A stretch of 20,881 bases of DNA from a virus, in IMG/VR virus record IMGVR_UViG_3300007344_000326, positions 1 through 20,881 of that record; one strand, 5' to 3'. Below, one piece after another: positions 1 through 20,881 of this stretch (within the stretch, counting starts at the first letter, position 1; every line of letters starts with the position of its first letter). A program made the position numbers and the translations under genes. A model generated the notes under the pieces. It had not been told where the DNA came from. It did no database searches and was given only the letters and a program-made list of their open reading frames with translations.

Positions 1-16
1 CTATCTACTGCTGTAT

Positions 17-634
17 CTAACTAATTACTTTTAACGCTCCCATATAAACAGGCAGCGGATAATATTGTTGTCCAGGTCTATATGATTTACTAACAAATAT
101 TTGAGAAGGTTGATCCTGTTTTAACATAGGGTTAAATACAGGTAGGTAATGAACATCTTCTCCTACTTCACTGTATTTTTTCCATTCTTCTGATATGTAG
201 TATCCTGGTATATGACCTCTATGATCTTTTTCTTGTGCTCTAATAGTAGAGAAGTCAATGTGATATGCTTCTGCTATTTTACTTCTGTCTCTTGACCAAA
301 TAATCTCTAAAGAAAATGAACCATGTAAATAAAAGTCTAAAGCAGCTTTATTGAATATATCGTTCCATGTTTCGTTATGATGATTGGCTTTATCTAAAAA
401 TGTTTCTTGATTTGCAGTAAGTCCTTCTCCTACAATTGCTTCTACGATTGCATTTACTGCTGCTGCATGTATTGATGATCTGTTATATAATTCGATTATA
501 TGTTGTGGAAAATTATTATCATTCCCACTGCGAACGTACTTACCATCAGATTTTTCTTTATATGACAAAAGAGGTGTAGCAAACCTCTCAAGCTTAGCAA
601 AGTGCATCTTATTTGTATTTGTTTTATTTGCCAT
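17..634 (-). CDS. Phage portal protein, N-terminal part (frame broken at window edge)
   Basis: The 205 residues resemble the N-terminal half of portal proteins from flavobacterial and marine metagenomic phages. The opening LLSYKEKSDGKY and GNDNNFPQHIIELYNRSSIH, then VEAIVGEGL, and the late YYPLPVYMGALK are patterns I associate with this family. Portals form the dodecameric ring at the capsid vertex through which DNA is packaged and to which the tail attaches. Full-length portals usually have 400-500 residues, so this is about half. The frame ends at a TAG at 17-19, but skipping two bases (as if one base were missing) opens a frame reading LDTAVD to the window edge, which fits a portal continuing. 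The gene starts at ATG 634, one base after the stop of the upstream gene. Identification is from motif memory; it could also be a genuinely truncated gene. Confidence 0.72.
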   Translation of the reverse strand: MANKTNTNKMHFAKLERFATPLLSYKEKSDGKYVRSGNDNNFPQHIIELYNRSSIHAAAVNAIVEAIVGEGLTANQETFLDKANHHNETWNDIFNKAALDFYLHGSFSLEIIWSRDRSKIAEAYHIDFSTIRAQEKDHRGHIPGYYISEEWKKYSEVGEDVHYLPVFNPMLKQDQPSQIFVSKSYRPGQQYYPLPVYMGALKVIS

Positions 635-3471: not shown

Positions 3472-3972
3472 TTACTTTTTTTCGTAACTTCCTAAGTATG
3501 TCTTCTGGTAGTCTGGGTTGTAAACTATATTTAATCTTGGTCTAAGTTTTGCTATCCAATACTTTTCTCTTTGTAATCTCTTTCTTTTACTATCTATCTC
3601 TTCTAACAGAATAGCATAAATTACAAATGCTCCTTTGTGTTTCATATTACCCTTAAAATCACTGTTTCTATGCTGTTTTATTCTGTGTTCATACTTATCG
3701 GTACTACCTACATATAAACCTTTAGTAGTTACAAGCAGATACACTCCTTTACGGTCTCTACCAAACATTGCCTGTTGAGCTTTTTGAACATCCTTACTCC
3801 AACGTTTAGGATTATCCTTTCTCCATTTGTGAGCCGTATGTTTAGTCATCTTTTCATAATGGCATTTGCGACAGTAATTGTATGTATACGTTTTTGCATA
3901 CTTACTTTTTATTGTATAGTATTCTGTTATGGGTAAGTTTTTACCACACTTTGTACATATTTTTGTTTCCAT
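3472..3972 (-). CDS. GIY-YIG endonuclease with zinc-ribbon N-terminus (homing-type)
   Basis: Residues 6-37 hold a CxxC...CxxC zinc ribbon (C6, C9, C34, C37). Residues 76-150 are a GIY-YIG nuclease domain: GVY at 76-78, YVG at 87-89, the catalytic arginine in HRIKQH (R97), and a glutamate in QREKYWIAKLRPRLN. These four positions are the expected catalytic set, so it looks active. Enzymes of this type cut one DNA site and spread their own gene, or act in free-standing homing between phages. I start it at ATG 3972 (166 residues); an in-frame ATG at 4047 would add 25 residues overlapping the upstream gene with no similarity, and the chosen start is one base after that gene's stop. It lies between accessory genes and the scaffold gene, a usual homing-gene location. 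Confidence 0.85.
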   Translation of the reverse strand: METKICTKCGKNLPITEYYTIKSKYAKTYTYNYCRKCHYEKMTKHTAHKWRKDNPKRWSKDVQKAQQAMFGRDRKGVYLLVTTKGLYVGSTDKYEHRIKQHRNSDFKGNMKHKGAFVIYAILLEEIDSKRKRLQREKYWIAKLRPRLNIVYNPDYQKTYLGSYEKK

Positions 3973-3973
3973 G

Positions 3974-4585
3974 TTATTTGTTTTTACAGTTATTTCCATG
4001 CCACCTATAAAAGTTTCCTGAACCAGATCCAGATATAGTTTTACCACAATGTGGACATGTCAAAGAAATTGTTCTTCTTATTTTTACACTTCCAGGTATC
4101 TCTGAATATTTTCTACCCTCTATCAAACTTGTCATAGTATATAAAGAAACGTTATACCTTTTTGCCAGATCGTTAGCTGATAGAGTTTTGTTTTGTTTAT
4201 ACTCCTCTCTTATACATATCACCTGTTCTTGTGAAAACTTTCTGGTTGTACCTATAGAAGCTTTTCTGTAGTCATTATTAGCTACTTGCTTGGCTATAGC
4301 CTCTTTTGTACAGCTTTTAGGGTTTTGTACTAAGACTGTATACCAGTATGGGTCTTTATCAACGTGATATCCTTTCTCTGCTTGTAACTCTCGTTCGATA
4401 TCACTTACGGTAAAGATGTCTGTATATTCACCAAGGATAATCATTTCTCCTTTATCTCTCTGAAAATGCTGTCTCTGAGAGAAGTTCATAGTTACACCTA
4501 CTTTCTTACCTACAATCTCGTATAAGTAAAAAACTACATCACCTAATGATTGTACTTTCTGAAGGATTTGTTTACTTACTTCCAT
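3974..4585 (-). CDS. GIY-YIG-like homing-endonuclease relative with HTH and Cys/His finger
   Basis: This 203-residue protein has three parts. Residues about 17-80 hold VFYLYEIVGKKVGVTMNFSQR and a later VSDIERELQAEKGYHVD, a divergent GIY-YIG-like module of the kind found in phage endonucleases. Residues about 118-165 are a helix-turn-helix (KFSQEQVICIREEY, then LSANDLAKRYNVS and LIEGRKYSEIP), typical of the DNA-recognition part of homing enzymes. The C-terminus has CPHCGK followed by RWHGNNC, the Cys/His finger often seen at the end of phage HNH and GIY-YIG homing proteins. The usual catalytic tyrosine pair is less clear than in the neighbouring gene, so it might bind DNA more than cut. It starts 3 bases after the lipoprotein gene and ends one base before the next nuclease. 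Confidence 0.72.
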   Translation of the reverse strand: MEVSKQILQKVQSLGDVVFYLYEIVGKKVGVTMNFSQRQHFQRDKGEMIILGEYTDIFTVSDIERELQAEKGYHVDKDPYWYTVLVQNPKSCTKEAIAKQVANNDYRKASIGTTRKFSQEQVICIREEYKQNKTLSANDLAKRYNVSLYTMTSLIEGRKYSEIPGSVKIRRTISLTCPHCGKTISGSGSGNFYRWHGNNCKNK

Positions 4586-6535: not shown

Positions 6536-7075
6536 ATGAAAATAGCTATCACTGGAGCACAATCTACTGGTAAGTCAACTTTACTTAACGCTATTAAGAA
6601 AGATGAACTTAGGGATGGGGTGTTATCTGGATATGTGTTCAATGATGAGCTAACAAGAAGCATAAAAGAGAGAGGTATTGTCATCAACGAAAATGGTGAC
6701 AACCTCACTCAGCTTCTAACTATAAACGTTCATGTTAGTAATATCATTCAACCTAAATTCGTATCTGATAGATGTATCATTGATGCTGTTTGCTATACCC
6801 ACTGGTTATACAAAAATGGTAAAATCGATGAATGGGTAATGGATTACTCTACTAAAGTTTTACAACAAATAATTTTTTCTTACGATCATATTTTCTATCT
6901 TCCGAACGAATTACCAATTGAAGATGACGGTATAAGAAGTAATAATGAAAAATTTAGAAATGAAATAGTGGAGTTATTTGAATACTATATAAAAACTTAC
7001 AACTTACCTGTTATTACTTTAACTGGTAGTGTACAAGACAGAGTAAAACAATTTTACAACACTTTAAAACAATAA
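6536..7075 (+). CDS. P-loop ATPase/kinase, NadR-like (AAA_28-like)
   Basis: A Walker A motif GAQSTGKST is at residues 7-15, directly at the N-terminus. VSDRCIIDAVCYTHWL around residues 77-92 suits the Walker-B-like/substrate region of this group. YDHIFYLPNELPIEDDGIR followed by FRNEIVELFEYY matches the C-terminal pattern of the AAA_28 and NadR nucleoside-kinase-type family. Such proteins phosphorylate ribosyl nicotinamide or related substrates, and phage members may support NAD or nucleotide salvage. The substrate cannot be read from sequence. At 179 residues it is a single kinase domain, lacking the adenylyltransferase of cellular NadR. It lies one base after the coiled-coil gene and five bases before the GNAT gene. 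Confidence 0.8.
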   Translation: MKIAITGAQSTGKSTLLNAIKKDELRDGVLSGYVFNDELTRSIKERGIVINENGDNLTQLLTINVHVSNIIQPKFVSDRCIIDAVCYTHWLYKNGKIDEWVMDYSTKVLQQIIFSYDHIFYLPNELPIEDDGIRSNNEKFRNEIVELFEYYIKTYNLPVITLTGSVQDRVKQFYNTLKQ

Positions 7076-7080
7076 TAATC

Positions 7081-7434
7081 ATGAAGACAGAAACATTACA
7101 ATATTTCAACGATGCCAATTTATATTGGAGTCAAAACGGTTATGACAGAATGGATAACTGTGCAGTAATTAACTACAAAGACAAAGGATGGATGTGGATA
7201 AGAGAAAGACAAGAAGATAATCATGTCCACTTATCAAGATTTGTAGTAAATGAAAAAAGAACAGGATTAGGAAGTAAAATGATCGATATACTTAAAGATG
7301 GTTATGTTAGTATATCAGCTTGGATTAAACCAGAGTTATTTCCTTTCTATATTAAGAATGGTTTTACCATACAGTATGATAGTGAAGATCAATACGGTTA
7401 CTACTACTGTACTTGGGATAAATTAAAAAGATAG
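7081..7434 (+). CDS. GNAT-family N-acetyltransferase
   Basis: This 117-residue protein is compact for the GNAT fold. The centre has a strand and the acetyl-CoA-binding loop (LSRFVVNEKRTGLGSKMIDIL), the 'RxxGxGxxLL'-like motif A. A C-terminal part with FPFYIKNGFTIQYD then follows, the usual 'FY.k.GF' feature of the last GNAT strands. It would transfer an acetyl group from acetyl-CoA to an amine; the acceptor is unknown. It is the last gene of the plus cassette and is followed by terminator-like hairpins. Confidence 0.78.
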   Translation: MKTETLQYFNDANLYWSQNGYDRMDNCAVINYKDKGWMWIRERQEDNHVHLSRFVVNEKRTGLGSKMIDILKDGYVSISAWIKPELFPFYIKNGFTIQYDSEDQYGYYYCTWDKLKR

Positions 7435-7478
7435 TTGTATAAATGAAAAGAGGTTCTTATCTTTTGGTTATGTAAGAT

Positions 7479-7537
7479 GGGTAGGTAAGTTCACACCACG
7501 CTACGATACGCCTACCCGGGTTATACTTTTTTTCATT
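7479..7537 (+). terminator. Long-loop hairpin after the plus cassette
   Basis: GGGTAGG (7479-7485) and CCTACCC (7511-7517) pair perfectly over 7 bp around a 25-base loop; a T-rich stretch follows at 7527-7533 after about ten bases. The loop is longer than usual, so this may be a terminator or a structured RNA end. The 138-base interval 7435-7572 has no gene. Confidence 0.45.
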
Positions 7538-10725: not shown

Positions 10726-11652
10726 CTATTTTTCCCAGATGGCAGATGTACATTGAGCACATATTGTTCCCCAGGCATGTTCTAACACCTGTTTATGCTT
10801 ATCGTTCATCCATAAATCTTCTAACTTGTTTTCTTTTAGGTTACCGTATTTGTGTTCCATATGGTAATCGTTACAACATAAGAAAAGTTCTGAGTTAGCA
10901 TTTATATGTAACCATTCTGTATCTCTTTTACCTTGACATCCTATCACCTTTTTATCTTTTTGTATAAAAGGAGAAGATGAGATATATTCGTCTATTAAAC
11001 CTACCCTATCGATAAGGTGTGGTTGTTTAAATACATTTACGTTAGGAAATAATCTCTTTGCTTCTGCTACCTGTTCGTCAAGTTCGGTAGGTGATATATC
11101 TGGAAACTTAGGACCTTTTAAAGCACCTGATTGTCTATCATGTCCGTTAACTTGAACAGATAATAGGTTTTTGTTTATAAGGTTATCAGCAGCATACTGT
11201 ACGTTTTCTTTAAGTTTATAAAAGAGTTCTTTTCTCATGTTAACTCTCTTTTCAAATAATTCAGCATCTGTCCAGATAGGAGCATTTACACATACACCCC
11301 ATACTACATCTTGGTATTTGTTTATTATATCTGTTTTAGCCGGAGTTAAAGGTGTACCATTTGTTAAAACAACCATACCCAGTTTGAACTCTCTTAACGT
11401 TTCTAACATTTCTTCAAAATGAGCATATATTAAAGCTTCATTATAGTGTGAAGTATAGATACCGTTAAAAGCTGGAGATACTATACCTCCTTTGTTATCG
11501 TGTATTTGTTGTATTATGTTTCTAAACTCTTGAGGTGTCATTTGATTAACACCCTCTGTAGGGTTACCGTGATAGGCAACAGGACAGAACCAACAACCGG
11601 CGTTACATAATCCGTTTGGGTCTATTTGTGCGTATCTTATTTGATCTGCCAT
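10726..11652 (-). CDS. Radical SAM protein with SPASM-type C-terminus
   Basis: This 308-residue protein has the CxxxCxxC cluster motif at C16, C20 and C23 (CNAGCWFC), which binds a 4Fe-4S cluster and S-adenosylmethionine. The following core has GIYTSHYNEALIYAHF and VVLTNGTPL, the expected barrel strands. The C-terminal part has GCQGKRDTEWLHI, LFLCCNDYHMEHKYGNL, LEDLWMN and CAQC, the Cys pattern of a SPASM/twitch auxiliary cluster. Enzymes of this type often modify peptides or sugars through radical chemistry; the substrate cannot be read. It overlaps the upstream glycosyltransferase by 16 bases, so they form a coupled unit directly after the Thr/Cys-rich adhesin. It lies within a structural operon and was probably gained as an accessory gene. 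Confidence 0.85.
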   Translation of the reverse strand: MADQIRYAQIDPNGLCNAGCWFCPVAYHGNPTEGVNQMTPQEFRNIIQQIHDNKGGIVSPAFNGIYTSHYNEALIYAHFEEMLETLREFKLGMVVLTNGTPLTPAKTDIINKYQDVVWGVCVNAPIWTDAELFEKRVNMRKELFYKLKENVQYAADNLINKNLLSVQVNGHDRQSGALKGPKFPDISPTELDEQVAEAKRLFPNVNVFKQPHLIDRVGLIDEYISSSPFIQKDKKVIGCQGKRDTEWLHINANSELFLCCNDYHMEHKYGNLKENKLEDLWMNDKHKQVLEHAWGTICAQCTSAIWEK

Positions 11653-12488
11653 GACTCTTGTGTTTCTTTTATTGTTTTAAAATCTTCGTTTATATCAAGA
11701 TGGTTATAAATTAACCCCATAGGATTGTTAAACCTTTTTAACCACATTCTATTTGCTTTTACCTTATCGTAAGAAAATCTTAACACTTTACTTCCTTGGT
11801 AAGGATCTATATGTGTTGTAAAATGGTAAAATCTTACCCTTGTACCGTCTGGGTTGTTTACTATAAACTTACCATCTTTAACAGATAATGTTTTTGGTAT
11901 GTTATGATTCTCCCATAGATGCATATACTGCATAAAATCAAGCTCTAAGACATCTACGTTATCTTCTTGTACTATATCACATAGAGAGAACATCTCTGTG
12001 TTAGGAACTTTACCTTCCCTATATGGTTGTTCAAGCATCCTTTCAACACTTCTCTGCAACAGGGATTTACCTTGTTTTCCTATGACCATAAGACCTATAT
12101 TGAAAAGGTTTCCTGCTCTATGTGTTAAAACGTATTCTGGAACAACTATAAGTTTGTGATCTTCAAGTTTATCTATAAGGTCATCCAGGTTATCTAAAAA
12201 CAAAGTATCTGCATCTAAAAGAACCTCTACATCACAATCGCTTTCTATAAGACCTTTCCATTTAAACCCATATAGGTTATAGTATGTCCATAAATCCCAA
12301 TCTTCTTGGTGTACATCTATTACCTCTACACCTATATCTTTCAGATGTTGTCTTTTATCTTCATCTAAAGTATGCCAGCTATATACTCTGAAAGGATGTT
12401 TATGTTCATATAGAAGATAACTTTTATATAAGACAAGACACTGTTCGTAGTATGTGTTGTTTACAAATGTTGAGAACCTTACCTTCAT
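11637..12488 (-). CDS. Glycosyltransferase, GT-A type (GT8-like)
   Basis: This 283-residue protein shows the GT-A order. There is an N-terminal strand MKVRFSTFVNNTYYEQCLVL, a nucleotide-sugar region, and a DxD motif LLDADTLFLD at residues 91-99 (D92, D94) for the metal and the nucleotide sugar. NIGLMVIGK in the middle resembles 'fN.G.mvi' in GT8-like enzymes, and FYHFTTHIDPYQGSK near the C-terminus includes the usual late histidine. It would transfer a sugar from a nucleotide-sugar to an unknown acceptor. It overlaps both neighbours (4 bases with the upstream enzyme, 16 with the radical SAM gene), so the three are translationally coupled. Confidence 0.8.
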   Translation of the reverse strand: MKVRFSTFVNNTYYEQCLVLYKSYLLYEHKHPFRVYSWHTLDEDKRQHLKDIGVEVIDVHQEDWDLWTYYNLYGFKWKGLIESDCDVEVLLDADTLFLDNLDDLIDKLEDHKLIVVPEYVLTHRAGNLFNIGLMVIGKQGKSLLQRSVERMLEQPYREGKVPNTEMFSLCDIVQEDNVDVLELDFMQYMHLWENHNIPKTLSVKDGKFIVNNPDGTRVRFYHFTTHIDPYQGSKVLRFSYDKVKANRMWLKRFNNPMGLIYNHLDINEDFKTIKETQESWQIK

Positions 12489-13432
12489 ACCAAACAGCTC
12501 TTCTTACCTACCTCTTGTATATACTCAAAGTATTTCCAACCGGTTACATTTTTGTTAGCATTTTCGATAACATGTCCGTAAGGTAACTTTCTATCAAACA
12601 TACCTTTAAAAAAGATACCTGATTTGTCATTTACTACTCCGGCGTTATGAAAAAAAGCATATTCTTCCCATCTATCTATGTTGTCGATAGCAAAGTGAAA
12701 GTTAAACTCCTTAGGAACACGTGTCTCTCTGTTATACTTCCAAGCTGTCCATAACTCTGACCACATAGACATAGTCCAATGCTGTAGAACCATGTAGTTT
12801 TCTCCTGCTATATCTTTCTTCTTTTTGATAGCGTTAGATATTGGAGGTATCTTTTCCCATAACTCCATCTGTAAGTTATAGCTATCTCTCCAGTATTGTG
12901 TAGGAACGTTCTTTATAAGTTTCTGAGCACCACCAGAGTTTTTTTCTTGACTTTCTACAAAGTCTGGATCTAAACCTGCTATACCACACATAGAATGGAA
13001 AACAAGATTACCTTTAGATTTAATATAGTTTGCTCCTATATAAGAACATGTATCTGATAGATACCATATATCATCTTTTAGGTAAGGTGTAAAGTCAAAA
13101 GGTTTTGTAAAGATAAAATCAGCATCATGAAAGAATATCTCCATATGCTGTAGATGTGGATTTGCTATCCAGTGTTTCTCTAAGATGTGTGCCTGTAAAG
13201 AAGGTTGATAACTGTTTAACCCTCTTGTATCATCATAAAAAAAGAACTGTACACCTTTAAAATGGTCTTTCAACCTTATCCAATCCATCGGTATACCTGG
13301 TCTTGCTATATCTAATCCTAACACAACATGTATGTCTGCTGGATCGATACCCATATCTAAAAAGTTATTTACATAAACCTCTACCTCCCATGTATACCTT
13401 GGTATGGCTGGTTGACAACTTAAATATATCAT
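12485..13432 (-). CDS. Glycosyltransferase-like protein, viral type
   Basis: This 315-residue protein has a DxD-like motif HDADFIFTKPFDF at residues 102-114 (D103, D105) in the right context for a GT-A enzyme. It opens with MIYLSCQPAIPRYTWEVEVY and has WRDSYNLQMELWEKIP in the middle and FHNAGVVNDKSGIFFKG in the C-terminal half. I recall similar proteins in marine phages, where they are annotated as glycosyltransferases. The resemblance to plant peptidyl-hydroxyproline or serine glycosyltransferases is only a suggestion from the arrangement of motifs. It is the first enzyme gene after the adhesin region, 18 bases from its end, and overlaps the next gene by ATGA. Confidence 0.72.
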   Translation of the reverse strand: MIYLSCQPAIPRYTWEVEVYVNNFLDMGIDPADIHVVLGLDIARPGIPMDWIRLKDHFKGVQFFFYDDTRGLNSYQPSLQAHILEKHWIANPHLQHMEIFFHDADFIFTKPFDFTPYLKDDIWYLSDTCSYIGANYIKSKGNLVFHSMCGIAGLDPDFVESQEKNSGGAQKLIKNVPTQYWRDSYNLQMELWEKIPPISNAIKKKKDIAGENYMVLQHWTMSMWSELWTAWKYNRETRVPKEFNFHFAIDNIDRWEEYAFFHNAGVVNDKSGIFFKGMFDRKLPYGHVIENANKNVTGWKYFEYIQEVGKKSCLV

Positions 13433-13450: not shown

Positions 13451-14398
13451 TTAACAAAATACCTCATCTACTACTATACCAGTTGGTCCTATCTGTATCG
13501 CAGCTCCATCTCCTGTCTTATACCAGTTACCTCCTCCGTTAAACGTTGATGAACAATCTACGTTAGAGTATACTGTATCTCCTATGGTTGGTTCAAATCC
13601 AGATCCGTCATGTCTTCTTCTTGTTGGAGCTGTTGCACTACAAGCTGCTGCTGATGTTGAATATCCAGATGTTGAGCTAAAGAATTGGTTACAGTTAGCT
13701 AATGTTGTAGTTGTAGTTGTTGTACTTGTAGTTGTAGGTGGAGGACAAGCTCCTGTTATCAAGTAGTCTATAGTTCCGCTATATACCGCTGCACCTAAAG
13801 TCCAACATTGTCCTGATCCATCGTTAACAAGTACTTCATCTCCTGGACTATATCCTCCATAAGGTCCTACAAATCCTAAATCTCCTCCATCGTTACGTTC
13901 TGCTATATAAGCGTTTGGTGTTTGTGTTGTAGTAGTTGTAGTTGTCGATGTAGATGTCGTAGTAGGAGCAGCAGTTGTTGACGTTGTTGACGTACTTGTT
14001 GTAGTAGGAGCTGATGTTGTAGTCGTTGTTGTTGGTGGTGTACAACCAGCACAGCTGTTATATCTTGTTACAGTTTGTCCATCTACATTACCAGATATAC
14101 TGCCTTGTGGTGCTACTGTATCAAGGTATGTACAAGCACTTACACAAGTATTGTAGAATGAGTTTCCTATTGACCAGTTACCTACTTGGTCTGATAAAGT
14201 TTGTAGATTTCCTCCACAGAATACTTGATTACCACTATCACAATATCTTAGGTAATAGTATGTTGTTGATAATGTAGTTGTACTTGTGGTTGTAGAAGTA
14301 CTTGTTGTAGTAGTTGTTGGTGGGTTACAAGCATTACAATCTATGTACGAGTTAATAACATCGTTTGTGTTTGTAGGTGCTCCTTCTGAACCAACTTC
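13451..14398 (-). pseudogene. In-frame continuation of the adhesin gene after a TAA stop
   Basis: From 14398 to 13451 the reading frame of the upstream 1173-residue protein continues for 315 codons without another stop. It starts EVGSEGAPTNTNDVINSY and carries three more Cys-containing modules separated by Thr/Ser linkers at about 14325-14270, 14040-13915 and 13740-13700. It ends GIVVDEVFC. I found no ATG, GTG or TTG in this frame between the stop and 13762 (TTG, in GTIDYLITGAC), and that TTG sits in the middle of a module. Independent translation of the whole segment is therefore unlikely. The region is either read through the stop, or has been cut off by a recent nonsense mutation or a sequence error. 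The next gene begins 18 bases later. Confidence 0.7.
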
Positions 14399-17300
14399 TT
14401 AACATGTTAGACCATATCCTGCTATCTGTACAGATTCTCCTGGGTTGTATATCGTTAGAGATCTAAAGTATACTGTTGAACCACCACCACATGGTTGAGC
14501 AAAGTAGTAGTAGTATGGATCAACCGTCGTTGTGCTGGTTGTTGTAGATGTAGTTGTTGTAGGAGGTAACGTTGTACTTGTTGTTGTGGTCGAAGTACTT
14601 GTTGTTGTAGTTGTACATGGTCCTGTAAGTGTTACCGTTCCTCCTGTAATAGTTGGTGTAGGACGAGCACACTGTAGACCAACAGCTTCGTAAGGTAAGC
14701 TATATGATTGTGGATTACCATCACAGTCTGTATAACTAACATTACATCCTCCAGGGTTTAAACATTCTAACTCATACTCATAACATCCTGTTGGATCTAT
14801 GGTTGTAGTTGTTGTGGTAGTAGATGTTGTTGTAGGTTCTGGTCCACATCCTGCCCATACAAATACGATATCATAAGATAACGATCCTCCTTGTCTCTCA
14901 ACTGATCCAGAACAAGCACAGAAATCTGGTGTTGTAGTATCTGGTAACACAACGTTATCGTAAGACATACTTCCTGAACAATCCAGATATTGGTAAGTTA
15001 ACGTTTGACCCAGGTCATAGTTTTCGATATAGTACGTGTAACAATCAGCACATGTTGTTGTGGTGGTTGTAGTACTTGTAGATGTAGTTGTTGTAGCACA
15101 AGTTCCTGTCAAGGTAACTACACCTCCTGCTATACTTGGAGTAGGACGAGCACAAATAAGTCCTGCTTGATCGAAAGGAGCTGTAAACTCTTGAGCATCA
15201 CCATTACAATCAGTATATTGTACCAAACATCCACCTGGTGTTAAACACTCTACCTCCCATTCGTAGCATCCTAAAGGATCTAACGTAGTAGTTGTAGATG
15301 TTGTTGTAGTAGTGGTTGGTTCTGGACCACATCCTTCCCAATCTAAGATGATGTCGTAAGCTAAACTTCCACCTTGACGTTGTACTGAACCTGAACAAGC
15401 ACAGAAGCTTGGAGTTGTTGTATCCGGAAGAACAACATTATCTTGGATGATGCTACCTGAACAATCTTGATACTGGAATGTCAACGTTTGACTTAGATCG
15501 TAGTTCTCGATGTAGTAGCTGTAACAGTTACAAGAGAACGTCGTAGTTGTTGTCGTTGTAGAAGTACTGGTTGTCGTTGTGGTTGTAGGAACGGTTGTAG
15601 TACTTGTTGTGGTTGACGTTGATGTGGTAGTCGTAGTTGTGGTTGGTACCGTAGTACTTGTAGTCGTGGTAGACGTAGAAGTAGTTGATGTGGTACTTGT
15701 TGTAGTTGTAGATGTAGTGGTTGTTGTGGTAGGTCCTACAGGTACTTCTGGTGTTGTATAATAAGCAGGATATAAACGGATAAGCTGTACCGTAGCTACA
15801 TCTTTATTAGAAATGTTAAAACCGCTAATCTTATTGATGCGGTATAATTGGTCTTTTATAAAAATTTTATCGTTTAATCTTATATCTTTATACTCCTGTT
15901 GATTAAACTTTATATCTAAAGTAACCTTTTTACTTTCATCCCAGTAAAGGCTATCAATGTATGTTTTCCAATATTGTGTATATACTGTCTTTCCAGATAC
16001 TACGTTTACACCACCGGTAAAAGGTACATAGGTGTTGTTGAAGTGTAAATCCAAGGTACTACCTGTAACAGAAGGTATCTCCGAAACGTTCGATAGTGTA
16101 GCATACTGTCCTGTCACTTCAATATTTTCTACTGGGAGACCTATATAAATGGGAACAGGTAAAGTACTGGTTGCTTTATATCCTATACGTGGTTTAAATT
16201 TATACGCCTTTTGTTCTGCGTTTTCAAACTTATATAGGTGAGGAAATACAAAAGAAGAAGCAAGGTTAAGATTAAATGTTGGATTACCTTGTTCGTCAAC
16301 ACTTCCTGATTGTATCTCTGAACCTAATACAGTGGGAGCAAATAAAGTACCTATATTTTTATCTCCCTGTGATATATTATTTTGTGATAATAGACGTAAG
16401 GTACCGTACTGAAAGTTTGGTGTATCTTCTTGAGCTACTTTAGAAAATCTATCACTGTCTTCTACGTTAGCAAGTTTTATTTCTCTTTGTTGTTCAGATA
16501 CTGTATGTCTTATACCAACTCTTTCAGCTGTTTGAAATTTATCTGTCCAATCTATGAATCTACCTTGTAACATCCATTGATCGAACGTATCTATCGATAT
16601 TTTATTGTTTTCGTTATATACTGGTGTAAGAACAAGATTAAACTGTTCTATGAGACCTTTTAAGATATCTAAACTTTTTGTTTGAGCATCCCATTGGTTG
16701 GCCATATTAACCGTAGTACCTTCGTATGTTGTTGGAGCTGAACTGTTAGGTAAAGACCATGTAGATCTAAAAGGAAAAGATTGTAGTTGGGTACCACTAT
16801 AAAAAGCTGTTAACCTACATGTTATAACATCACCAGCAGTTAAAGCATATGTCTGGGCAGGTAAGGTTTGTGTTATAGGAGCATCAAGATAGTTTAACTG
16901 TTCTACATCATATACTCCTATAGGTGATCCGTTTCTGTAGAACTGTAGTTCAAACTGTACCGGAGTGTTACCTGGTCCAACTGGGTTGGTAATATATGTA
17001 AAAGTAGCTGACATGGTATAGTCACCACTTACCGGAACTGTATATGTGTTTGTACTGTTGTTAAAGTTTCCTCCTGGATCAGAATAAGCTTGAACGTTTA
17101 ACACATAAGTTGTACCTGATGTCATCTGAGGCATAACTGTACCTCCTACACCTTCTAAACCGTTAAACTGAGCATCACCTGCTCCTAAACCTTCTGTTGC
17201 TTTAGGTAATATATATAAGTTTTCCCAAGATGATCCTGTTACAAAAGATCCTGTATATGTAAAACCTACCTGATCAAATAAAACATCTAACGTATCTTTA

Positions 17301-17920
17301 ACTCTTATGGCAGGTAAAAACTGTTTAGCCTGCATCGGTGTAGATCCTGTTGTGATATACCCTGGTGTAGTACCTGTAGCCACTCTTGGTATGTTAGGCC
17401 AATCTGCTTTAGAATCAGATCCAAAGTCACATAAAGGGTAAAATACTGAACCAGATAAAAGGTTACCTGACCAGCTATCTACAATAGATGCTGATGTTAA
17501 TGTATGTGTATAAGCTGACCAATCTCCTTCAGCTATGAGTTTATTAGCTATTGCATCTTTAAACTGTACAACCTGATCTGATATCTGTACTTTATAAGTA
17601 ACATACCCTTCTTGATCGGTTAAAGCTTCTAACAGTAGTAACTGACCTTGTATAAGCGTCTCTCCGTCATAGATAACATAAGCCTGTATGGTATTATAAA
17701 AAGCAGGTATATCTGTTGCTCCTATTTCGTAAGCATGTTTGAAGAACTTGTTGTTCTTTTTGGTACCTGGTAAATCAAATGTTTGAGAACCTACACCAAA
17801 GAAAGAACCTAACCTATCATTTTCGATAGCAGACACATCAAGACGTAATGGTATATCACTTTGGATATCCAGGTCGTATGTCGTTCCTTCAAATACTACT
17901 CTTAGGATGATATTTGCCAT
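14399..17920 (-). CDS. Tail-tip/adhesin protein with Thr-rich linkers and Cys modules
   Basis: The 1173-residue protein has two very different parts. Residues 1 to about 725 are a phage tail protein: DIPLRLDVSAIENDRLGSFF then FDLPGTKKNNKFFKHAYEI recall the N-terminus of large tail-tip proteins in flavobacterial phages. From about residue 727 a Thr/Ser/Pro-rich linker of some 67 residues leads to Cys-containing modules. Two A modules (FSCNCYSYYIENYDL and CADCYTYYIENYDL) and two B modules (GCYEWEVECLTPGGC and GCYEYELECLNPGGC) alternate with further Thr-rich linkers in a 161-residue tandem duplication. The last module begins YYYYFAQPCGGG and ends in LTC just before TAA. Such surface modules probably bind the host. 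It starts immediately after the structural gene at 17921; glycosyltransferases follow. Confidence 0.8.
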   Translation of the reverse strand: MANIILRVVFEGTTYDLDIQSDIPLRLDVSAIENDRLGSFFGVGSQTFDLPGTKKNNKFFKHAYEIGATDIPAFYNTIQAYVIYDGETLIQGQLLLLEALTDQEGYVTYKVQISDQVVQFKDAIANKLIAEGDWSAYTHTLTSASIVDSWSGNLLSGSVFYPLCDFGSDSKADWPNIPRVATGTTPGYITTGSTPMQAKQFLPAIRVKDTLDVLFDQVGFTYTGSFVTGSSWENLYILPKATEGLGAGDAQFNGLEGVGGTVMPQMTSGTTYVLNVQAYSDPGGNFNNSTNTYTVPVSGDYTMSATFTYITNPVGPGNTPVQFELQFYRNGSPIGVYDVEQLNYLDAPITQTLPAQTYALTAGDVITCRLTAFYSGTQLQSFPFRSTWSLPNSSAPTTYEGTTVNMANQWDAQTKSLDILKGLIEQFNLVLTPVYNENNKISIDTFDQWMLQGRFIDWTDKFQTAERVGIRHTVSEQQREIKLANVEDSDRFSKVAQEDTPNFQYGTLRLLSQNNISQGDKNIGTLFAPTVLGSEIQSGSVDEQGNPTFNLNLASSFVFPHLYKFENAEQKAYKFKPRIGYKATSTLPVPIYIGLPVENIEVTGQYATLSNVSEIPSVTGSTLDLHFNNTYVPFTGGVNVVSGKTVYTQYWKTYIDSLYWDESKKVTLDIKFNQQEYKDIRLNDKIFIKDQLYRINKISGFNISNKDVATVQLIRLYPAYYTTPEVPVGPTTTTTTSTTTTSTTSTTSTSTTTTSTTVPTTTTTTTSTSTTTSTTTVPTTTTTTSTSTTTTTTTFSCNCYSYYIENYDLSQTLTFQYQDCSGSIIQDNVVLPDTTTPSFCACSGSVQRQGGSLAYDIILDWEGCGPEPTTTTTTSTTTTLDPLGCYEWEVECLTPGGCLVQYTDCNGDAQEFTAPFDQAGLICARPTPSIAGGVVTLTGTCATTTTSTSTTTTTTTCADCYTYYIENYDLGQTLTYQYLDCSGSMSYDNVVLPDTTTPDFCACSGSVERQGGSLSYDIVFVWAGCGPEPTTTSTTTTTTTIDPTGCYEYELECLNPGGCNVSYTDCDGNPQSYSLPYEAVGLQCARPTPTITGGTVTLTGPCTTTTTSTSTTTTSTTLPPTTTTSTTTSTTTVDPYYYYFAQPCGGGSTVYFRSLTIYNPGESVQIAGYGLTC
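14615..15540 (-). repeat. Tandem duplication of A+B Cys modules, period 483 bp
   Basis: The A modules begin at about 15538 and 15055, and matching bases (for example ACGTTTG at 15484 and 15001) are 483 bases apart, which is 161 codons. Each unit holds A (CY.YYIENYDL, DCSGS, NVVLPDTTTP, FCACSGSV, RQGGSL, GCGPEP), a Thr linker and B (GCYE, ECL.PGGC, YTDC, CARPTP, GG.VTLTG.C). The copies differ at many synonymous positions, so the duplication is not recent. Confidence 0.85.
15541..15740 (-). repeat. Long Thr/Ser-coding low-complexity tract
   Basis: About 67 codons, almost all ACN and AGT/TCN with a few GTT-CCT (Val-Pro) breaks, make the first mucin-like linker. Shorter linkers of the same kind occur near 15330-15280, 15110-15055, 14845-14790 and 14620-14520, and beyond the TAA stop. 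The repeats are short and imperfect, so they are prone to slippage and to misassembly. Confidence 0.85.
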
Positions 17921-18982
17921 CTATCGTGCTTGTCTTGGGTTAGCGTATCTGTATTGTATCTCGTATTGGAAAAGTTTTTGTCCTCTACGGTTAGTATTAT
18001 GTGTGTATGTAGAGTTTGAAATCTCGATAGGTACAAACTGTACACCTTGCTGTATAAACACTTCTGGTGATTCTAAAAGTTGTGTTAACCATTCTGCATG
18101 GTCTTGAGAAATAGGAGGTGTGGTAACTACATAATCATCAGTATACTTTACATTATATGTATCAATACCTCTTCGGTTAACGTTATATGGTGAAAGGTTG
18201 GAACTATAGTTTACAAAAGGTTTTAATATTGTTTGTCTGTTTACAGATGTTTCTTTTCTTATTGGTAGATTAATTCCATAGTAGTCCCAAAACCCGTAGT
18301 TGTTGATAAAAGCAAAGTTTACTCTATCATAGTTACAATCCTCTTCTACAGGTACGGTTATAGATGTACCGTTATATGTTATAGTCTTATCAGAAGATGG
18401 AGTTAATGTAAACTGTTTAAACTCTCCAGCAGGAACACTTCCTCCTTCACCTCCTGTTATAGATAAAGTCTTAGATGTACCTGTTCCGTTATATGCTGTA
18501 ATAGAAAAGATATCTGTAGAAGATACAGGTATGTTAGAAGGTCTGTCAGTAAGTAATACAGCTGAACCACTATCTAACCAGTTATAAGATATACCGTTAT
18601 TAGGGTCAACTATACCTGGAAATACTTCTATGGTATCAGAAGCTAAGTTAGGATAAACGGTAATAGAAGAAGAAGGTGATGTACCATACTCTTCTCCAAA
18701 CTGTATATCAAAAGACTGTACAGATGTTACAGGTGTAAAGTCATCCTGTATCCAAGATAGATCATATTCGAGGTAATCGTTTAAAACTCTTGATGGGTCA
18801 AATACACCAACACCATATGGATTAGGATATTGTTTTATCCTTGTTAAAAGGTCACCTCCTTGTTTTACATCCATCACATATTGAAATTGTGGTGAGGCAA
18901 AAGCAGAAGAAGAAACTACATATACAAGATTTGTATACGTTACGTTTGGTGTGGTTGGCTGTTGGGTTATACTGTAAGCCAT
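17921..18982 (-). CDS. Virion structural protein, tail-associated
   Basis: This 353-residue protein has a beta-rich composition with Ser/Thr/Gly. Near residues 62-82 it has FDPSRVLNDYLEYDLSWIQD and then FDIQFGEEYGTSP, a pattern I recall from unnamed structural proteins of marine Bacteroidota phages. The C-terminal part has RKETSVNRQTILKPF and YEIQYRYANPRQ. No enzymatic motif, signal peptide or membrane segment is seen. It lies between the HK97-gp10-like gene (overlap 1 base) and the adhesin gene (adjacent), which suggests a tail or baseplate role. I cannot name it further. Confidence 0.72.
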   Translation of the reverse strand: MAYSITQQPTTPNVTYTNLVYVVSSSAFASPQFQYVMDVKQGGDLLTRIKQYPNPYGVGVFDPSRVLNDYLEYDLSWIQDDFTPVTSVQSFDIQFGEEYGTSPSSSITVYPNLASDTIEVFPGIVDPNNGISYNWLDSGSAVLLTDRPSNIPVSSTDIFSITAYNGTGTSKTLSITGGEGGSVPAGEFKQFTLTPSSDKTITYNGTSITVPVEEDCNYDRVNFAFINNYGFWDYYGINLPIRKETSVNRQTILKPFVNYSSNLSPYNVNRRGIDTYNVKYTDDYVVTTPPISQDHAEWLTQLLESPEVFIQQGVQFVPIEISNSTYTHNTNRRGQKLFQYEIQYRYANPRQAR

Positions 18983-19449
18983 TACTTAAAGTTTGGGTTA
19001 TTTTTAAATGATTCCTCTATTGTAAATGCTACTTCGTTTTCCATAGCGTCTAATATAATGTCTTCTCCTTCATTAAATGCAGCATCGATAGATCTTTCTA
19101 TGAAAGGAAAAGGTGTAATACCTTTCTCTTTGATCTTTCTACCTATAAGGAATGCTGCACTATCAAGAGATATCTTTTTTAATCTTATTGGTTTATTTTT
19201 TATCCATTTTTTGATAGCCGGTGGTGGAGGAAAAGATCCTCTCTTTCTACCTTCATCTACAAACTGTCCGTAGTATTCCATATTGATGGCTATATCTACT
19301 ACATCACCTGTCTGAGATGTTGTTACATTAATGCTGTTAGATAAATCACCTGTAGAGTCTTTCTTACCTCTTTTTAAGGCAACTCTCATATTTTCGGCAG
19401 CTAATTCTCCGAATCTTTCTAACCCATCAAGTAATTTTTTACCTATCAT
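18982..19449 (-). CDS. HK97-gp10-like tail-completion/neck protein
   Basis: This 155-residue protein has the layout of the HK97-gp10 group: an N-terminal helix (LLDGLERFGELAAENMRVAL), then TGDLSNSINVTT, then MEYYGQFVDEGRKRGSFPPP and a helical C-terminus ending FIERSIDAAF. 'YG.fVd.GR....PP...I..W' is the hallmark part. Family members connect the head to the tail or complete the tail end. It overlaps the upstream gene by four bases and the downstream gene by one, so the connector genes form one coupled unit. Confidence 0.8.
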   Translation of the reverse strand: MIGKKLLDGLERFGELAAENMRVALKRGKKDSTGDLSNSINVTTSQTGDVVDIAINMEYYGQFVDEGRKRGSFPPPPAIKKWIKNKPIRLKKISLDSAAFLIGRKIKEKGITPFPFIERSIDAAFNEGEDIILDAMENEVAFTIEESFKNNPNFK

Positions 19450-19907
19450 ATTGAACCTGTAGGATAGCTACAGTAATCTAATTTAAATGGTGTTGTTACA
19501 TTTATTGTTGCAACCCAACCAAATACTCTATCTTGAAATGCTTCATTGACGGGTAATATGTTCTGAAGAGTAATATCGTATGTTTGTTGTATGTTAGTCT
19601 GACCGAAGTTAAACCAAGCCATCAAGTCATAGATATAAATCTCAGTATTGGATATTACCTCTATATTACTACCATCAGATACTTTAGGTATATCTAAACT
19701 GTATAATTCGAAGTTTAATATTCTTGTCCTATCAGTTAAGTTAGCACCGGTAGGTCTTAGATAGATGTAAGGGTATAATTTATTTACTGCATTAGCATCT
19801 AAATAATCTAAAGTACCACTATCGAATTTGGCTATCTGTAAATGTGCATTACAAGCAGCTTGAAACTCGTTTACTATCTGACGGTATGTAAGGTTATTTG
19901 TAGTCAT
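19446..19907 (-). CDS. Tail-completion/terminator-like protein
   Basis: This 153-residue protein begins with a helix (LTYRQIVNEFQAACNAH) and has LYPYIYLRPTGAN, ILNFELYSLDIPK and SNTEIYIYDLMAWF. It ends in VATINVTTPFKLDYCSYP. The order of helix, 'yPy...p', a strand pair and 'd....l..p...D.C' is one I recall in a small protein placed beside HK97-gp10-like genes in flavobacterial phages, presumed to cap the tail. It overlaps the HTH-like gene by 14 bases and the downstream gene by 4. The function is inferred from position and pattern. Confidence 0.68.
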   Translation of the reverse strand: MTTNNLTYRQIVNEFQAACNAHLQIAKFDSGTLDYLDANAVNKLYPYIYLRPTGANLTDRTRILNFELYSLDIPKVSDGSNIEVISNTEIYIYDLMAWFNFGQTNIQQTYDITLQNILPVNEAFQDRVFGWVATINVTTPFKLDYCSYPTGSI

Positions 19908-20097
19908 TTAACGTACTTACTTGTATCATTAATGTTGCAGCTATTTTATTGTCATCAAACCCTTTATCTCTTAACGCTTTTACTTTATCTGCTAAAGGAT
20001 CTTTTACTACGTTAACTGTTGGTGTTTCGATAGGTTTATCCTCTGTTAGAGAAGGTGTTTGAATTGGTTCGTTTATTTCGATTTTTTTCTTAGCCAT
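19894..20097 (-). CDS. Small HTH-like phage protein
   Basis: This 67-residue protein has a basic N-terminus (MAKKKIEINEP), a Pro/Thr-rich linker and a C-terminal helical part (LADKVKALRDKGFDDNKIAATLMIQVSTLNDYK). That part is helix-turn-helix-like in pattern ('vkaLrdkG..d.kIA..L.is...'). It could bind DNA or act as a small connector; the position inside a structural operon favours a virion or assembly role. It starts two bases after the frame-corrected end of the upstream gene. Confidence 0.55.
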   Translation of the reverse strand: MAKKKIEINEPIQTPSLTEDKPIETPTVNVVKDPLADKVKALRDKGFDDNKIAATLMIQVSTLNDYK

Positions 20098-20099
20098 AA

Positions 20100-20881
20100 T
20101 TATCTATATCTTGCTCTTATTTGTGCCTGTTGGTGGGCCTTTCTTTCGGCTTTCTCAACCTCTCTATTATAATCTTTATCTATCTCCAAATAGTTACACG
20201 CAAATAAGAAGTTTAAGTCTGTGATTGATTTGTCTCCAGTGATTGAAAGTATGTTGGTCTTAGAGAGACTGTAAAGGGTACCAAACCACCCCCAATGCTC
20301 TCCAAAAGACTTAGAATTTGATTCTCGTGTCTCTCCTTCGTCCTCCTCGACATGTTTCCCTCCAAATATTGAATATGATTCAAGTATAGGCTTGCAGTGC
20401 TTAAAAAAAAACTAACACCGCCTAACACTATATCTACTGGAAGGTTTTTAAACTTATCTGCTCTTTTATCGAGTTTATCACTATCGTACTTTTCTATGGT
20501 GTAGTAATCAAATGGGTTCTCTATAGAGTCTCTTAACGATTTAACATGACTCTTAACCGCCCACTTTAAACTACCAAAGCGATGATCTGTTACAGGTCGA
20601 TACAGTATCGCTGCTATCTTATGTAGGTTACCTTCTGGATTCTTAGTAAATGTTTCTAAGTCAATCCATTCACCTACCGATGTTTGTTTAATATTAGCAA
20701 ATCCATACATCTCACCATCATACTCAAATAATGTGTGAAACGTTTCTTTAGGGTCTGCTAATTCAGCAAAATCATTAGCTATCTGTGTTAGTGTTGTAAT
20801 AGGCCAATCTCTTACTTGTGATACTGGTAGACCGGTAATTACACTTACTGATTTTATTAGTTTACCAAAAGGTGAATCTCC
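20100..20881 (-). CDS. Tail-assembly-like protein, 5' partial, frameshift at T9 run
   Basis: The gene enters the window open at its 5' side: the frame before ATG 20710 is open to 20881 and reads GKLIKSVSVITGLPVSQ. It then has YGFANIKQTSVGEWIDL and HKIAAILYRPVTD. At 20403-20411 the minus strand has nine T in a row. In frame 0 translation ends at TAA 20213 after a Ser/Arg-rich tail, but in the -1 frame it reads on for 100 codons (FKHCKPILESYSIF, then FGEHWGWFGTLYSLSK and LNFLFACNYLEIDKDY) to TAA at 20100, two bases before the next gene. The -1 frame has the better protein-like pattern. The N-terminal 'iTGL....v...p...L..i' resembles phage tail-assembly proteins. Identity is moderate; the frame break may be recoding or an error. 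Confidence 0.65.
20403..20411 (-). other. T9 homopolymer at the frame break (slippery-site candidate)
   Basis: On the minus strand the codons are AGT TTT TTT TTA AGC. Slipping back one base gives TTT TTT TTT AAG CAC and opens the long downstream frame. One additional T would do the same in the DNA. It is either a programmed -1 site (as in many tail-assembly genes), transcript slippage, or a homopolymer length error. Confidence 0.6.

Follow-up and report, generated by a model that had tools for sequence, protein, structure and literature searches.

A single-base nonsense change very probably interrupts the gene of a modular phage tail adhesin

The 20,881-base window analyzed here, an IMG/VR virus record, carries on its minus strand a gene for a Thr/Ser-rich, Cys-modular adhesin that is halted by an in-frame TAA, beyond which the same frame stays open. 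The locus raises the question of whether this codon is a one-base lesion in a continuous gene, a read-through signal producing short and long forms of the protein, or the end of one gene ahead of a second. Translation from 17920 to 13448 bore out the reported open frame, with TAA 14401–14399 as the sole interruption between ATG 17920 and TAA 13453–13451. The relevant features are the following.

14399–17920, minus strand: pre-stop frame from ATG 17920 to TAA 14401–14399, 1,173 aa (translation)
15760–17920, minus strand: N-terminal domain, residues 1–720, a probable tail-tip or baseplate anchor (gene order, homology in viral contigs)
14327–14515, minus strand: interrupted Cys module YYYYFAQPC...LTC-stop-EVGSE...CNAC (homologs, AlphaFold model)
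14399–14401, minus strand: premature TAA at a tyrosine codon that is otherwise invariant (comparison of homologous modules)
13451–14398, minus strand: post-stop open frame of 315 codons plus TAA, lacking a usable start before TTG 13762 (translation)
14042–14260, minus strand: post-stop Cys module YYYLRYCDSG...CAGC (translation)
13745–13915, minus strand: post-stop Cys module NAYIAERNDGG...QCWTLG...ITGAC, with 70% identity to one in relative L008 (comparison with the unbroken gene of L008)
13454–13693, minus strand: C-terminal cap module, PHROG 21885 (matching module last in the protein at 19 of 19 other loci)
13451–13453, minus strand: natural stop codon of the gene, TAA, 18 bases ahead of the next ATG at 13432 (translation, frame list)

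The architecture of Thr/Ser linkers and Cys modules continues past the stop, as originally predicted: the post-stop frame contains 23% Thr and 14 Cys, and the modular part ahead of it 30% Thr and 26 Cys. When the bases of the post-stop stretch were shuffled 2,000 times, the frame never remained open, and the other two forward frames of the stretch contain 22 and 26 stops. In a control covering the 24 listed frames, long open frames also followed three other stops of the window, so the length of an open frame after a stop is not unusual by itself; those three open frames seem to belong to neighboring genes that abut in frame. The unusual feature of the adhesin's post-stop frame is its missing start codon, the scan having placed the first in-frame ATG, GTG or TTG at TTG 13762, where it had been reported. 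The distance of 18 bases between the natural stop and the next gene is as expected for a tight operon.

Genes of the window encode head and tail components of a tailed phage, among them a tail-completion protein, a tape-measure protein, an XkdF-type protease and a portal. Based on its modular architecture and on the gene order, we infer that the adhesin is located at the tail tip and that its function is host-surface binding. Conserved counterparts of its N-terminal domain occur in viral contigs with identities of 82%, 48%, 45% and about 23%; Pfam gave no matches to this domain, and no Pfam or NCBIfam family matched the protein. The structure model of the domain had a low confidence, with a pLDDT of 47, and was left out of the analysis. 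Among the Cys modules, the first four (14600–15540, minus strand) are a two-module unit present twice, as CNCYSYY+GCYEWEV and as CADCYTYY+GCYEYEL. Since L008 has a single copy of this unit, the unit was probably duplicated in the lineage of the window.

To identify the codon that homologs carry at the stop site, we used the interrupted module as the query, with the stop read as Tyr for the search only. The direct homologs, L041 (67% identical module) and L042 (55%), have TAC and TAT at the site, respectively, and both frames run through it. Searches with the L042 and L041 modules yielded more loci, and a profile was then run against six-frame translations of all collected loci, in which stops were masked to keep any in-frame stop detectable. 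Among the 33 distinct modules found, 32 have Tyr at the site (21 TAT, 11 TAC) and that of the window is the only one with TAA, a count that carries a mild bias towards Tyr from a profile seeded with Tyr-bearing sequences and from scan patterns that in some cases include Cys-Tyr, tempered by the fact that several patterns and most of the profile fall elsewhere in the module. The expectation that the residue following the last pre-stop Cys is aromatic in this kind of module held in every homolog (Cys-Tyr in 32 of 32), and the QCWTLG motif of the NAYIAERN module, which had been put forward as a parallel, does contain Cys-Trp, with its Trp in the same column as the interrupted Tyr. In all 32 homologs, the sense codon is one base away from a stop.

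AlphaFold modeled the module, with TAA read as Tyr, at high confidence (pLDDT 95.7) as five strands (residues 3–9, 16–20, 29–32, 39–45 and 53–58) and a short helix. The stop leaves three strands and drops the last two conserved cysteines; because its position is in the fourth of the five predicted strands, a module truncated there could not, on this model, close. The 63-residue module (14327–14515, minus strand) occurs in one to three copies per protein in many viral contigs. It had no match in Pfam, PHROG or PDB and was not found in the genome collection searched, and a structure search with the model retrieved nothing significant from PDB or among viral structures (best viral E value 0.2). 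From the comparison emerges a Cys module that is widespread, has a confidently predicted fold and matches no entry of Pfam, PHROG or PDB.

The whole gene could be followed in relatives. The nearest one covering it, L008 (N-terminal domain 82% identical, downstream genes 80% identical at the DNA level), encodes the adhesin in one unbroken 1,359-residue frame, which includes the counterpart of the post-stop NAYIAERN module. An unbroken frame across the site is also present in L009, L041 and L042, and a scan of the other collected loci revealed no stop between two linker-bearing parts in any of them. Searches of a phage collection (DNA and protein) and a plasmid collection (protein) found no relative. 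At all 19 matched loci, some of which are redundant, a stop directly follows the cap module, which identifies it as a C-terminal cap and 13451 as the natural gene end. A stop conserved in relatives together with a new start before the second part, originally proposed as a refuting arrangement, was looked for and did not occur.

These comparisons make it very likely that a single-base nonsense change, by mutation or assembly error, has hit an invariant Tyr codon within one continuous gene. The simplest account offered originally, a one-base change of TAT or TAC to TAA, accordingly agrees with the Tyr found in all 32 homologous modules and with the intact long frame of the nearest relative. The stretch 17920–13451 on the minus strand would then be one gene, encoding a 1,489-residue modular tail protein that would consist, in order, of the N-terminal domain, small Cys modules joined by Thr/Ser linkers and the cap module, and the change would have converted the invariant Tyr codon of the fifth Cys module to TAA. 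In a phage that does carry this base, translation would end after residue 1,173 with this module half-made; the truncated product would retain four complete Cys modules along with the N-terminal domain but lose the cap and the two full modules preceding it, a presumed loss of binding modules, and the remainder of the frame would stay untranslated save for rare, unprogrammed suppression. The change is recent, since the frame shows no other decay. Within the interrupted module, dN/dS relative to L041 was 0.19 before the stop (38 codons) and 0.18 after it (25 codons), values whose position below 1 reflects the long divergence of lineages with intact genes and is no measure of post-stop translation in the window strain.

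The original prediction had also raised read-through giving short and long adhesin forms. The TAA would then be real and either tolerated or selected, some ribosomes would insert tyrosine or a similar residue at it, and virions would mix long and short adhesins with different surface-binding modules. We regard such programmed read-through as very unlikely. In bacteria, stop codons inside genes can be retained under purifying selection (Belinky et al. 2021, PMC7918605). The frame past the stop is intact and protein-like, and restoration of the invariant Tyr by a near-cognate tRNA-Tyr is possible in principle. However, none of the 32 homologs has a stop at the site, none of the other loci has one between linker-bearing parts, and the stop lies inside a module rather than between complete domains. 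The RNA around it folds no better than shuffled sequences (z −0.36), structure not always being needed for read-through, and no tRNA genes were found in the window, which represents an incomplete genome. With the stop conserved in none of the homologs and no RNA structure around it, this reading is without support. Moreover, TAA is the usual stop of the window, ending 18 of the 24 listed frames, in line with its earlier description as an ordinary stop there.

The same stop usage bears on the notion that the phage reads TAA as a sense codon, which we hold to be the most improbable of all: reassigned TAG is known in phages (PMC9523058), but reading on through TAA in the window gives just short tails or abutting genes. 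Separate translation of the post-stop part as a second gene, which would suit the tight packing of the neighboring tail genes of the operon, is opposed by the lack of an in-frame ATG, GTG or TTG until 13762, two modules on, and by the single frame in relatives; we consider it extremely unlikely, if not quite as much as reassignment. A separate start, a reassigned code and RNA-stimulated recoding were rejected on the start scan, the stop usage and the fold z-score of −0.36, respectively.

Within the nonsense account, the TAA may be a true mutation of the strain or a wrong base in the consensus of the metagenome assembly. By judgement rather than computation, we lean slightly towards a true mutation and treat the wrong base as a serious, if somewhat less probable, possibility. 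The contig carries a second single-base lesion: the portal gene (1–634, minus strand) is cut to 205 residues by a one-base loss of frame near position 22, about 22 bases from the contig end. Loci L074–L076 differ from the window at this lesion and are 99.94% identical to it over 1.8–3.6 kb, with zero or one mismatch, and the record behind L075 has an unbroken portal frame of 401 aa. Because a portal is normally indispensable, this lesion is very probably an error, and probably one of the contig-end type. In addition, the TAA lies amid repetitive Thr linkers, which are difficult to assemble. On the other hand, the portal lesion is situated at a contig end, where errors are common, whereas the TAA is interior. 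Over 17150–20881, 21 bases separate the window from each of two other strain contigs. For one of these, the nearest strain, 16 differences lie in coding frames that were examined, and 13 of the 16 are synonymous, which fits sound sequence. L010 and L011, which match the window at 99.4% identity over 3.7 kb, break off within the N-terminal domain, short of the stop, and a degenerate DNA pattern spanning the stop retrieved no near-identical contig across it from the viral collection.

Whether it arose in the phage or in the assembly, the single-base nonsense change is an ordinary lesion of a modular adhesin gene. As a broken distal tail protein, the adhesin has its nearest precedent in the side tail fiber of laboratory lambda, whose gene in lambda PaPa (stf, ORF401–ORF314) is broken by a frameshift relative to Ur-lambda (PMC9659904). 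In both cases, a one-event lesion splits a receptor-binding tail protein in its distal part while the intact gene persists in relatives. Unlike the lesion in the window, that of lambda stf is a frameshift and not a nonsense change, and lambda is an isolated laboratory phage whereas the window is a metagenome contig; the likeness is not based on sequence relation. The cases described by Belinky et al. 2021 (PMC7918605) resemble the present one in having a stop within an otherwise intact coding frame, but they are backed by evolutionary conservation, whereas the stop of the window is shared by no relative. A long open frame past the stop of a phage adhesin can thus mimic recoding, and it is the relatives that reveal a one-base nonsense change. 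Should the base be real, the tail protein would be naturally truncated at its distal end, which probably binds surfaces, much as in the broken lambda fiber.

Several features of the neighborhood were also recorded. Two glycosyltransferase-like genes, recognized by eye from DxD-type motifs and without a match to any named family, and a radical SAM/SPASM gene follow the adhesin at 10726–13432 (minus strand). The same set is found in L008 (7537–10243) and L021 (7931–10823). It is present in the three loci with Thr/Ser-rich linkers (the window, L008 and L021) and was not found in the two relatives with Pro-rich linkers (L009 and L041), a very small sample; the products might modify the Thr/Ser linkers. 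In L008, a 154-residue methyltransferase-like gene (by eye; 7059–7523, plus strand) lies between the adhesin and the glycosyltransferase-like genes, with no counterpart at the corresponding place in the window. Finally, two overlapping homing endonuclease-like frames, one with a GIY-YIG domain, adjoin the capsid genes of the window at 3472–4585 (minus strand).
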